A stretch of DNA of 64,000 bases from Desulfovibrionaceae bacterium (lineage in GTDB: Bacteria; Desulfobacterota; Desulfovibrionia; Desulfovibrionales; Desulfovibrionaceae), in contig JAQXJC010000031.1 in the NCBI GenBank assembly GCA_029008115.1, positions 1-64,000 of the forward strand. Direction: 5' to 3'. The notes under the pieces were generated by a model. The model saw only the letters and a list, made by a program, of their open reading frames with translations. It ran no database searches and was not told the origin of the DNA. This document shows positions 20,358-24,202 of this stretch, piece by piece. Each line of letters begins with the position of its first letter. Within the stretch, counting starts at the first letter, position 1. The position numbers and the translations under genes are program-made.

Positions 20358-20519
20358 GCGCCGGGACTATTGTTTCCCGGCCATGCGCCGCCGTCTTCCC
20401 GCGCGGACATGCTGGCGGCGCCCTGAATCGCCGCGCGCAGACCGGAGCCGGAGAGCGGCAATGCGCGCCATGCGGTGCCGGTGTGCGGGATGCCGTCTTT
20501 TTTGCAGGGAGAGCTGGTC

Positions 20520-21179
20520 ATGGCATGCCATGTTTTATTTGATCACGGTCGTGCGGCGCGCATCGGTCTGCCGGAGGCGGTATTCTGCGAAGGCAAGTCC
20601 GTTGAGGCGCTGCTTGACCTGATGAAGCGGTTCGGGCGCGGTTCGGGACATCCCGTGCTGTTCACCCGCCTGGCGGCGGAGATATTTGCCCGCATGCCCC
20701 GAACTGTGCGGGAAGGATATGACTATCATCCATTGTCCCGCACCGCCTTTGGCGACAGGCTGCCGCCGCGGGAGCGCGGCCGCGTGGCCGTTGTTTCCGC
20801 AGGCACGGCGGACGGCCCTGTGGCATGGGAGGCCGCGCGCACGCTGGAATATCTGGGCGTGCGGCATGCGCTGTTCGAGGACTGCGGTGTGGCGGGGCTG
20901 TGGCGGCTGACGGAACGGCTGGATGACATCAACAGCTGCGATGCGCTCATCGTGATTGCCGGTCTGGATGCCGCACTGGCCAGCGTGCTCGGAGGGCTGA
21001 CGCCCAGACCCGTGTTTGCCGTGCCCACATCCGTGGGATATGGTGTGGCTGCCGGCGGCCATGCGGCCCTTTCCAGCATGCTTTCCAGCTGTGCGCCCGG
21101 CATAGGCGTCATGAATATTGATAACGGCTATGGTGCGGCCTGTGCCGCCGCACGAGTGATACATGCGCTTTACCCCTGA
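20520..21179 (+). CDS. larB: LarB-like nickel pincer cofactor biosynthesis protein
   Basis: LarB carboxylates and hydrolyses nicotinic acid adenine dinucleotide, the first step to the nickel pincer cofactor of lactate racemase-type enzymes. The 219-residue protein has the AIR-carboxylase-like core: RVAVVSAGTADGPVAWEA, then FEDCGVAGLWRL, DALIVIAGLDAALASVLGGL, and VPTSVGYGVAAGGHAALSSML. The ATG at 20520 has AGGGAG upstream. It is followed by larC with 13 nt between the two genes. Confidence 0.88.
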   Translation: MACHVLFDHGRAARIGLPEAVFCEGKSVEALLDLMKRFGRGSGHPVLFTRLAAEIFARMPRTVREGYDYHPLSRTAFGDRLPPRERGRVAVVSAGTADGPVAWEAARTLEYLGVRHALFEDCGVAGLWRLTERLDDINSCDALIVIAGLDAALASVLGGLTPRPVFAVPTSVGYGVAAGGHAALSSMLSSCAPGIGVMNIDNGYGAACAAARVIHALYP

Positions 21180-21192
21180 TGCAGGAGACATG

Positions 21193-22143
21193 ATGCAGAC
21201 GATGCAGCGGCCGCAGCATGCGGCCATTCCCGACGCTCCGTCCACCGCGGGCCCGGGCGGTCACGGGGCCCATGAACAGGACAGGCATACAGGCCCATGC
21301 GCACATGAGAGCCTGCATATGCCGGACACCGCACCGGAGGCGGAACAGCATGGTGCATCCGGCGGAACAGGACACGTGCTGACCATACGCATGTGTTCGG
21401 GGCTGTCCGGCGACATGTTTCTGGCGGGCCTGCTGCGCCTGACGGATATGAACGAGGACGAGCTGGACAGAAGACTGTCCGCTGTCATGCCGGAGCTGGC
21501 AGGAACGGTGCGGCTGATGCGGCGGGAGGTGCACCATATTGGCGGCTGGCATGCGGAGGTGCGCCTGCCGCATGAACACAGGCACCGCACGCTGGAGGAT
21601 ATTACCGCCCTGATTGCCCGCAGCGGCATGGACGGACGGGCCCGGGAGCTGGCCGTGCGGACATTTGCGCGTCTGGCCGGCGCGGAGGCGGCAGTGCATG
21701 GCGTAGCGCCGGAGGACGTGCGCTTCCACGAGGTGGGGGCGCTGGACAGTATTCTGGATATTTGCCTGACGTGCGAGCTGTTCACCGTGCTGGGCCTGCC
21801 GCGCCTGCTGGCCAGCCCGTTGCCGCTGGCCGATGGCGAAGTGCGGTGCGCGCATGGCGTCATTCCCGTGCCCGCGCCTGCCGTGCTGGAAATGCTGGCC
21901 GGGCTGCCCGTGCGTCCCTTTGCCGGTCGGGGAGAAACGGTAACGCCCACGGCCGTTGCCCTCCTGCTGTCCCTGGGGGCGGAGTTCGGCCCGTGGCCGG
22001 CCATGCGCGTGGAGCGGAGCGCTCTGGTCTATGGCACAACCGTATTTCCCGGCGCGGCCAACGGTGCGGTATTTGCGCTGGGCACAGAGGATGGCGCGGC
22101 TTCTGGCGCGAAACACCGGAAGATTCTTCATCCGGTACTGTAA
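21193..22143 (+). CDS. larC: LarC-like nickel insertion protein, N-terminal (LarC1) part only
   Basis: LarC inserts nickel into the pincer cofactor using CTP. This protein has 316 residues. Its first 60 are rich in His, Gly and Pro, as expected for metal binding; then comes the LarC core (CSGLSGDMFLAGLL, VRFHEVGALDSILDI, GRGETVTPTAVALLLSLGAEFGP). It stops where LarC1 ends in two-part lar systems. The LarC2 half is not found in any frame before nifS. Start is taken at the second of two adjacent ATGs, 5 nt after AGGAG. larE and a lactate racemase gene are not in the window. Confidence 0.8.
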   Translation: MQTMQRPQHAAIPDAPSTAGPGGHGAHEQDRHTGPCAHESLHMPDTAPEAEQHGASGGTGHVLTIRMCSGLSGDMFLAGLLRLTDMNEDELDRRLSAVMPELAGTVRLMRREVHHIGGWHAEVRLPHEHRHRTLEDITALIARSGMDGRARELAVRTFARLAGAEAAVHGVAPEDVRFHEVGALDSILDICLTCELFTVLGLPRLLASPLPLADGEVRCAHGVIPVPAPAVLEMLAGLPVRPFAGRGETVTPTAVALLLSLGAEFGPWPAMRVERSALVYGTTVFPGAANGAVFALGTEDGAASGAKHRKILHPVL

Positions 22144-22164: not shown

Positions 22165-22203
22165 GGCCGCGCCGGCAGGGGGGAATCCTTTCCGGCGCGG
22201 CCG
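22165..22203. terminator. hairpin between larC and nifS
   Basis: An 11-bp perfect GC-rich inverted repeat GGCCGCGCCGG/CCGGCGCGGCC (22165-22175, 22192-22202) lies in the gap between convergent larC and nifS. The U-run is poor on both strands, so strength is uncertain. Confidence 0.6.
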
Positions 22204-22208
22204 TTGCA

Positions 22209-23360
22209 TTATTTGAAGGGGGAGATGGCGCGCAGCTGCGCAATGACGCCGGGGAATTCCCTGACGACGTAGTCCACTTCCTCCCGCGTTGTGTAGCGGG
22301 AAAGGGAGAGCCGCACGGAGCCGTGGGCATAGTTGAAGGGAACGCCCATGGCACGCAGCACGTGGGAGGGCTCAAGACTGCCGGACGTACAGGCTGAGCC
22401 GGAGCTGGCGCAGATGCCGAGGCGATCAAGCAGCAGCAGAATGGCTTCGCCTTCCACATTCCTGAAGGCGATGTTGGACGTGTTGGGCAGGCGGTTTTCC
22501 ACGTCGCCGTTGACCATGCAGTCAGGCACGGCGGCCAGCAGGCCCTGTTCCAGACGGTCGCGCAGGGCGGCTACCTCCACCTGTTCGCACTGCATGTTGC
22601 GCCGCGCCAGCTGGGCGGCGACGCCCAGGCCGACGATGTAGGGCACGTTTTCCGTGCCTGCGCGCCGGCCGCGTTCCTGATGTCCGCCCCGCAGGAAGGG
22701 ACGGAAGCGCACTCCCTTGCGGATGTACAGCGCGCCGATGCCCTTGGGGGCGTGCAGCTTGTGGCCGGACAGGGAGAGAAAGTCCACGGGCATGTCATGC
22801 AGGCGCATGTCCACCTTGCCCACGGCCTGCACGGCGTCCGTGTGGAAAAGCGCGCCTTTTTCCCGGGCCATTTCAGCCAGCTTTGCAATGGGATAGATAT
22901 TTCCCGTCTCATTGTTGGCCGTCATTACGGAGACAATGGCCGTGTCGTCATCCAGAGCCTCGGCGTACTCATCCAGATTCAGCCGTCCCCTGCTGTCCAC
23001 GCCCAGATAGGTCACGCGGTATCCTTCCCGCTCCAGGTTCTGACAGGGGGCGAGGATGGCGGGATGTTCCACGCGGGTCGTGATGATGTGGCGTTTTTCG
23101 GGCTGGCTCCGCACGGCGGAGAGCAGCGCCGTATTGTCGCTTTCCGAGCCGCAGGATGTGAACAGAATCTCATCGGGGGAGGCGCCCAGCAGCTCCGCGA
23201 GCTGTTCCCGCCCCTCGGCCACGGACTGCGCCACCTGACCGCCGAAGGTGTGCATGCTGGAAGGATTGCCGTACAGATCGCGGAAATAGGGGAGCATGGC
23301 CTCCAGCACTTCCGGCGCCACCTGCGAGGTGGCATTGTTGTCCAGATAGACGGTCTTCAT
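22209..23360 (-). CDS. nifS: cysteine desulfurase NifS/IscS
   Basis: PLP enzyme that takes sulfur from cysteine and passes it to the scaffold NifU. The 383-residue protein has YLDNNATSQVAPEV at the start, the PLP-lysine motif SGHKLHAPKGIGALY, and the active-site Cys loop CASSGSACTSGSLEPSHVL. The ATG at 23358-23360 has GGAGG. It lies 2 nt after nifU, so the pair is one translational unit for Fe-S cluster assembly. Confidence 0.95.
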   Translation of the reverse strand: MKTVYLDNNATSQVAPEVLEAMLPYFRDLYGNPSSMHTFGGQVAQSVAEGREQLAELLGASPDEILFTSCGSESDNTALLSAVRSQPEKRHIITTRVEHPAILAPCQNLEREGYRVTYLGVDSRGRLNLDEYAEALDDDTAIVSVMTANNETGNIYPIAKLAEMAREKGALFHTDAVQAVGKVDMRLHDMPVDFLSLSGHKLHAPKGIGALYIRKGVRFRPFLRGGHQERGRRAGTENVPYIVGLGVAAQLARRNMQCEQVEVAALRDRLEQGLLAAVPDCMVNGDVENRLPNTSNIAFRNVEGEAILLLLDRLGICASSGSACTSGSLEPSHVLRAMGVPFNYAHGSVRLSLSRYTTREEVDYVVREFPGVIAQLRAISPFK

Positions 23361-23362
23361 GA

Positions 23363-24202
23363 TTAGGCCTCCTCCACGATGATGTCCGGCGAGACATGTT
23401 CGCGCAGCTGTTTTTCCACAAGGTCCTTGATGGTGACATGGCTGGAGCGGCACTGCGAGCAGCGCCCGCGCAGCGCGACCACCACGCGGGGGCCGTCCAC
23501 ATCCACCAGCTCGATATCGCCGCCATCGGTGGCCAGGCGGGGACGAATCTCCTCGTCAATGGCACGCATGACCAGCTGCATGCGCTGAACATTGGTCATG
23601 CGCCGGGGAGCGGGGCGGAGCTCCTGCCGCGGCGTTTTCCCCAGCTCGCCGGCCAGTATCTCCGCGATCTGATCCAGACAGTCTCCACAGGCGCCGCCGG
23701 CCTTGGTGTACTGCGTTACTTCTTCCAGCGTCTTCAGACCGTTTTCCCGGATGGTGCGGATGATCTGCTGATCCGTTACGCCGAAGCACTTGCAGACCAG
23801 CCGGCCCTCCTCATGGGCATGAGACATGGCGGGCTCGCCCTTCCAGTTGCGGATAGCGGCTTCCAGCGCTTCCTGCCCCATGACCGAGCAGTGCATTTTT
23901 TCCTTGGGCAGGCCGCCCAGGGCCTCGGCAATCTGCCTGTTGGTGATTTTCAGGGCCTCGTCCACATGCATGCCCAGCACCAGATCAGTCAGCACGGAAC
24001 TGGAGGCAATGGCGCTGGCACAGCCGAATGTCTCGAATCCGGCTTTTTGAATGACACCCTCGTCACTGATCTTCAGGTACAGCTTCAGGGCGTCGCCGCA
24101 TGCCAGGCTGCCCACCTCGCCTATGGCATTGGCGTCTTCCAGGGCTCCGGCATTGTGGGGGGAAAGAAAATGTTCATGCACTTTTTGCGTATAGTTCCAC
24201 AT
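23363..24202 (-). CDS. nifU: Fe-S cluster scaffold NifU (three-domain)
   Basis: Scaffold on which [2Fe-2S] and [4Fe-4S] clusters are built. The 279 residues show the full NifU layout. An IscU-like N-terminal domain carries CGDALKLYL, GCASAIASSS and MHCSVMG. A central ferredoxin-like domain has VCKCFGVTDQQI and GGACGDCLDQI. The C-terminal Nfu domain has RCSQCRSSHVTIKDL. Full-length NifU outside nif clusters is common in sulfate reducers as the general Fe-S scaffold. A GAGGT site precedes the ATG, and a degenerate copy of the metA palindrome lies just upstream. Confidence 0.95.
   Translation of the reverse strand: MWNYTQKVHEHFLSPHNAGALEDANAIGEVGSLACGDALKLYLKISDEGVIQKAGFETFGCASAIASSSVLTDLVLGMHVDEALKITNRQIAEALGGLPKEKMHCSVMGQEALEAAIRNWKGEPAMSHAHEEGRLVCKCFGVTDQQIIRTIRENGLKTLEEVTQYTKAGGACGDCLDQIAEILAGELGKTPRQELRPAPRRMTNVQRMQLVMRAIDEEIRPRLATDGGDIELVDVDGPRVVVALRGRCSQCRSSHVTIKDLVEKQLREHVSPDIIVEEA

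Follow-up and report, generated by a model that had tools for sequence, protein, structure and literature searches.

The window, by which we mean the whole stretch of 64,000 nucleotides analysed here, is contig C31 of a Desulfovibrionaceae genome of 1.88 Mb (99.9% complete, in 52 contigs). It carries a larB gene followed by a larC gene reduced to the part that encodes the LarC1 domain, and this pair is bordered by a convergent gene that we take, from its own sequence, to encode a NifS-type cysteine desulfurase (Table 1). The larB frame is open from a GTG at 20475, the ATG given in the table being the likelier start on reading the sequence; the larC frame extends from 21163 to 22143 on the forward strand when counted from its first ATG, and its likely starts are the ATGs at 21190 or 21193, preceded by GGAG.

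Table 1. Features of the larB-larC1 unit and of its boundary (positions in the window)
Feature	Position	Strand	Basis or remark
larB	20520..21179	+	NCBIfam LarB NF033503, E 2.2e-74, 249.7 bits (cut-off 175)
larC1 (LarC reduced to the LarC1 domain)	21193..22143	+	PF01969, TIGR00299, AlphaFold2
His-rich N-terminal extension of larC1	21193..21372	+	His count; residues 1-66 with pLDDT <50, predicted to be disordered
G+C-rich hairpin between the convergent ends of larC1 and nifS	22165..22202	.	possible two-way terminator
nifS-type cysteine desulfurase gene, bordering the larBC1 unit	22209..23366	-	open frame 22209-23453

A first-pass annotation of this DNA had noted that the larC product stops where LarC1 ends, that it has a His-rich N-terminal extension, and that a hairpin and a convergent nifS follow directly. 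All three observations hold. PF01969 matches the product with an E-value of 3.8e-60 but covers only profile positions 3-234 of 375; TIGR00299, the LarC1 model of NCBIfam, matches it at 7.8e-49 (165.6 bits against a cut-off of 90), and NF052512, the separate LarC2 model of the same collection, which was shown to work on other proteins, has no match in it. Seven His are found among the first 70 residues (numbered from 21163), an extension that proved typical of the subfamily described below, and the hairpin is a strong one (-36.1 kcal/mol, z -3.61, with none of 200 shuffles equally good). The structure prediction of LarC1 alone that the annotation had proposed gave a confident domain, the AlphaFold2 block means being 82-98 over residues 71-310 in the same numbering. 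LarC is the CTP-dependent nickel insertase (cyclometallase), acting on P2TMN, in the synthesis of the nickel-pincer nucleotide (NPN), a rare cofactor derived from vitamin B3. The larC of L. plantarum is read as LarC1 plus LarC2, and the LarC of PDB entry 12bi (414 residues) aligns to residues 77-307 of the window protein with an E-value of 1.9e-40. In a Foldseek search with the LarC1 model nothing was retrieved at E 0.001, and the LarC entries 12bi-12bl were absent among the matches listed (database to April 2026).

Had LarC2 been lost from view by a frameshift, or moved elsewhere in the genome? A six-frame search of the whole genome, reading through stops, found PF01969 only once, and a LarC2-only profile found no match in the window genome (14 first-look stretches, 13 of them scored). 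We therefore see neither a frameshifted nor a detached LarC2. The earlier statement that no frame encodes LarC2 is thus confirmed downstream of larC and, by two profiles, throughout a nearly complete genome; no longer frame appears near 22140, where a frameshift had been suspected, and there is no full-length LarC elsewhere, since no second PF01969 gene is present. The suggestion that another gene supplies LarC2 fails for this genome, and yet it is true for 22 of 81 relatives whose LarC1 is of the same type. Because LarC2 has no match in either the protein or the genome, we file the window product, judging from sequence, as a LarC1-only variant and not as a standard LarC; the missing half is a natural state of this protein.

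The other parts of the pathway were also looked for, as the first-pass annotation had advised. The larE gene is present on another contig than larB-larC1 (G000:C9; 162 bits against a cut-off of 150), just downstream of genes that, by their sequence, are presumably hisH and hisF. No LarA is recognisable in the window genome: the sole match to PF09861 is partial (24.2 bits) and belongs to a DUF362 protein on contig C21 that carries two ferredoxin clusters. A second and different DUF362 gene lies on C43. The lar parts are thus scattered in this genome, and neither DUF362 gene is near larBC1. The system resembles the standard one in having an adjoining LarB and a LarE in the genome, and it differs from it in lacking LarC2 and LarA and in its His-rich tail.

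The short protein is by no means isolated. When the window protein was searched against 288 genomes of the family, 85 rows in 84 genomes scored at least 143 bits, the next row scoring 129, and the LarC1-only rows above this threshold define what we call subfamily S. Leaving aside three pieces that lie at contig ends, we retrieved 82 of these 85 loci and set them against 37 loci with a full-length LarC and 20 with a short LarC of another kind; an S profile scores the 82 at 288-481, and none of the 57 other LarC loci of the family that were examined exceeds 180. The protein ends at most 19 residues past the LarC1 match in 76 of the 82 loci, the longest tail being 102 residues. This recurrence of the same short form in 85 rows, with so many ending alike, means that the short larC is not a matter of chance. 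The gene adjoins larB in 55 of the 82 loci, and conservation of the LarC1 motifs extends across S. Within the 37 residues that precede the domain, at least six His occur in 44 of 76 S rows, in none of 33 full-length rows and in none of 19 other short rows (five, four and one rows, respectively, had no anchor motif and were left out). Values of dN/dS for larC1 are 0.12-0.39 in the 14 closest pairs, indicating purifying selection (about 0.21 for the window and its congener); over 1018 wider pairs the median is 0.41, higher than the 0.28 of LarB (446 pairs). We consider it almost certain that the larC1 of the window is a real and conserved stand-alone gene.

Beyond the family, the S form was met in Parasutterella, Duodenibacillus, Adiutrix and a deltaproteobacterial MAG. 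It was not encountered on plasmids: a search with the window LarC1 returned 97 records, all below 60% identity, and we count no S relatives among them because the three regions that were opened hold full-length LarCs (394-418 residues by their annotated lengths) beside LarA-type genes. Within the family, PF01969 is found in 260 of 288 genomes and LarC2 in 146, so that at least 114 genomes have a LarC without LarC2, a common condition, and short and full forms interchange at least seven times on the tree.

Where did LarC2 go in the S relatives? Among the 81 S genomes placed on the tree, 22 have LarC2 in another gene, and none was found in 59, including the window genome, a count that takes in incomplete genomes, so that any single absence is uncertain. 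Four of the 22 have a second, full LarC (G001, G018, G143 and G223). From the other 18, 14 carriers were read: six are stand-alone LarC2 proteins, and eight are LarCs that have kept LarC2 and whose LarC1 half lacks the HEVGA motif. The separate carriers thus range from stand-alone proteins of 153-207 residues up to LarCs in which the LarC1 half is degenerate; one of the latter reaches 53 bits with the LarC1 model, whose cut-off is 90, and 95 with the LarC2 model, whose cut-off is 50. These carriers indicate that the two parts of LarC can be encoded separately, and neither type is present in the window genome. On the S tree no fewer than 11 changes in the state of LarC2 are required (five on the starred branches alone), which suggests that the two halves were split by gene duplication and that LarC2 was then lost repeatedly. 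A mirror image of the LarC1-only form was observed in G050 and G110 (L250 2242-3342 and L251 3712-4821), where the protein that carries LarC2 cannot be recognised as LarC1 in its first half, LarB is present, and the search with the window LarC1 found no match.

LarA is present in 21 of the 59 LarC2-less S genomes (in one, G113, as two fragments only), the S-type larC1 being their only PF01969 gene, and among S genomes LarC2 and LarA show no association (Fisher p 0.45). As LarA is the known NPN user, LarC1 without LarC2 probably still makes NPN in such genomes, and for the same reason a LarC1 that works without LarC2 fits better than either reading offered by the first-pass annotation (LarC2 coming from another gene, or a different job for LarB-LarC1). 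On balance we favour, with some reservation, the view that the larC1 of the window acts in the synthesis of NPN or an NPN-like compound without LarC2. LarB from the next gene, LarE from the other contig and LarC1 would together complete a nickel-pincer-type cofactor without the CTP-binding LarC2; LarC1 alone would insert the nickel, which the His-rich tail may hold, and activation by CTP would be either dispensed with or carried out by an unrelated protein. Against nickel insertion without LarC2 stands the fact that the characterised LarC needs CTP (PMC11796402). If LarC1 alone does suffice, the CTP step held to be necessary for nickel insertion would be optional, and its role could be tested with natural enzymes.

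In the window genome, which has no LarA, the likeliest user of such a cofactor would be one or both of the DUF362 proteins. A DUF362 gene lies within 8 kb of larC1 in 16 of the 82 S loci (14 of them within 2.5 kb), compared with one of 37 full-length and none of 20 other short loci; the neighbours were labelled with profiles built in this analysis, and the adjacency comes mostly from one clade. This clade is the Mailhella group (g32), where larB-larC1 is near DUF362 in 12 of 16 loci, mostly together with larE, for example as a Tat-DUF362 gene divergent from larB-larC1-larE-DUF362-ferredoxin or, in one genome, as larB-larC1-DUF362-larE. In this group LarA occurs once among the 12 genomes where DUF362 is close by and three times among the other four (p 0.027, ignoring kinship). 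In the congener G001 and in genera g6 and g8 a Tat-DUF362 gene stands just upstream of larB-larC1 or larC1, and one independent case of adjacency comes from L198, a locus in a different genus whose LarC is full-length, in the order DUF362-larC-larE-larB.

DUF362 and LarA (DUF2088) belong to the same Pfam clan, CL0471, according to PMC11770544 (which uses DUF362 as a tree outgroup only) and, for the clan name, PMC7955657. In a comparison of profiles by hhalign the two align with a probability of 84.6 (E 6.8e-6), and H158, K168 and H184 of DUF362 face H172, K182 and H198 of LarA without gaps. None of these three residues varies in the 17 rows of the DUF362 alignment (A2), and their spacing of 10 and 16 is that of His174, Lys184 and His200 in L. 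plantarum. The lysine of LarA binds NPN covalently and a histidine completes the nickel ligands (residues numbered Lys183 and His199 in one LarA; PMC12611868), and the roles of the catalytic His108 and His174 are treated in PMC11770544. DUF362 thus appears, by alignment, to have the positions of the covalent-link lysine, of the nickel histidine 16 residues on, and of the catalytic histidine 10 before. Only the stretch 140-187 of DUF362 reaches the Pfam cut-off for LarA, and barely so (23.6 against 23.3 bits). The structural comparison starts from a Mailhella DUF362 model of low confidence (mean pLDDT 47.9); with this model, Foldseek ranks 1-12 are all of the LarA family, and in a second aligner (VIA) 12 entries reach Z-scores of 12.1-13.4, the following one 5.7. 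Among these 12 is 4nar, which does not bear the name of a racemase but does match the LarA profile. The predicted fold of DUF362 is, by this model, that of LarA. When the DUF362 profile was searched against PDB sequences, no match was found at E up to 1. Unlike LarA, DUF362 proteins carry ferredoxin clusters or a Tat signal, and they have no known substrate or cofactor.

It is the adjacency, the match to LarA by profile and by model, and the conservation of the cofactor positions that make DUF362 a candidate user. Its mere presence says little, since 276 of the 288 family genomes have it. Of the 12 family genomes without DUF362, nine are also without LarC; among high-quality genomes, DUF362 is missing in three of five without LarC and in two of 200 with LarC (Fisher p 7e-5, a value that ignores kinship and assembly gaps). 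This co-occurrence of LarC and DUF362 within the family is broken by G070 and G142, where DUF362 is present and neither LarB nor LarC scores above PurE-like levels; G142 (99% complete) has LarA and four DUF362 matches without LarB or LarC, which is either an assembly gap or a case of enzymes without a cofactor pathway. In a set of 14 control genomes, LarC and DUF362 occur without LarA in Synechococcus elongatus and Haloferax volcanii, as a DUF362 user would predict; Corynebacterium glutamicum and Methanocaldococcus jannaschii have LarC and neither LarA nor DUF362; and Bacteroides ihuae, with DUF362 but no LarC, speaks against the idea (p 0.09 for the co-occurrence of LarC and DUF362 over the 14). 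Also against it are DUF362 proteins that bear the triad and are encoded on Selenomonas, Roseburia and Parabacteroides plasmids, where the annotation shows no lar gene within 8 kb (gene tables incomplete, plasmids only). The one on plasmid pSRC1 of Selenomonas ruminantium (L247 7800-8933) is 54.8% identical to the Mailhella Tat-type protein and lies between two flavodoxin genes, which hints at a redox role.

We thus put forward DUF362 as the NPN user of the window genome as a testable proposal, not a finding, and one whose chances we place a little below even. The explanation taken as a whole (a functional stand-alone LarC1, NPN-type synthesis without LarC2, and DUF362 as the likeliest user) could, in our estimation, prove right or wrong with equal ease. 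About 15% of genomes have larB, larC and larE but no larA, and their user was expected to be of a different fold (PMC11796402); a DUF362 protein beside larB-larC1-larE, with a LarA-like predicted fold and cofactor residues, would be a concrete candidate for it. A broader reading, speculative and rather unlikely, is that there exists a LarC2-free and CTP-independent branch of pincer-nucleotide synthesis built on a His-tailed LarC1, with DUF362 proteins as clients that are perhaps redox enzymes and not racemases; if it were true, DUF362 proteins, some fused to ferredoxin and some exported by Tat, would be the long-sought non-racemase users of the nickel pincer. In a literature search of partial coverage we found neither a description of a LarC1-only LarC nor a proposal of DUF362 as an NPN user.

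The strongest competitor is that NPN is made but serves some protein other than LarA and DUF362. The genomes G216 and G276, which have LarC and lack both LarA and DUF362, are in its favour, as is the different-fold user expected for genomes without larA; the adjacency, fold and residues of DUF362, and its frequent absence from high-quality genomes without LarC, argue against it, and we regard it as unlikely. The alternative carried over from the first-pass annotation, that LarB and LarC1 do a different job and make no NPN (they might, for instance, store or deliver nickel, or yield a pyridinium product free of nickel), is slightly less probable still. It would account for the lack of LarA and for the lack of the half that binds CTP in characterised LarC, and the His-rich tail would suit nickel binding; re-use of the module is moreover plausible, because in another LarC1-only group the gene has larB on one side and a DUF3431 gene on the other, and genes for a MacB-like permease and a MATE protein are close by. 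However, larE is retained in the window genome, the S proteins keep the LarC1 motifs, and an S-type larC1 is the sole PF01969 gene of the 21 genomes with LarA and stands beside larA in Parasutterella muris. A LarC2 that was missed, being too divergent or lying in the gaps between the 52 contigs, is improbable: the separate LarC2 of 22 relatives lends it some weight, but the genome is almost complete, the LarC2 profile finds detached copies at E 1e-38 or better and finds nothing here, and the 16 Mailhella-group genomes with an S-type LarC1 all lack LarC2 as well. That larC1 is a decaying remnant or an assembly frameshift of an ordinary full-length gene we reject as very improbable, nothing but a domain shorter than the Pfam model speaking for it, and the shared end of the S proteins, the purifying selection in close pairs, the lack of LarC2 signal downstream in any frame and the hairpin directly after the gene speaking against it. 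The function that we prefer for LarC1, nickel insertion without LarC2, is inferred, as are all the functions assigned here.

Some further loci deserve mention. In Parasutterella muris (L106 7012-10731) a unit larB-larC1-larE, whose larC1 is of S type with a very His-rich tail, is convergent with larA, and one PF01969 match is found. LarC1-only proteins of other kinds (for example those of L049 and L052) are like that of the window in consisting of LarC1 only and in being near larB and larE, but they fall outside the S clade and have no His-rich tail. This type was seen in L047-L053, L056-L058, L064 and L065, in the order larE-larB-larC1; in L052, DUF3431 and a MacB/FtsX-like permease gene come after larC1 and a MATE gene lies upstream, and the product that loci of this type serve is possibly secreted or exported. 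L059-L063 form yet another LarC1-only group in which larB is close to larC1, and in L063 larA lies 154 bases from larC1, although the genome concerned (G265) has a full LarC elsewhere.
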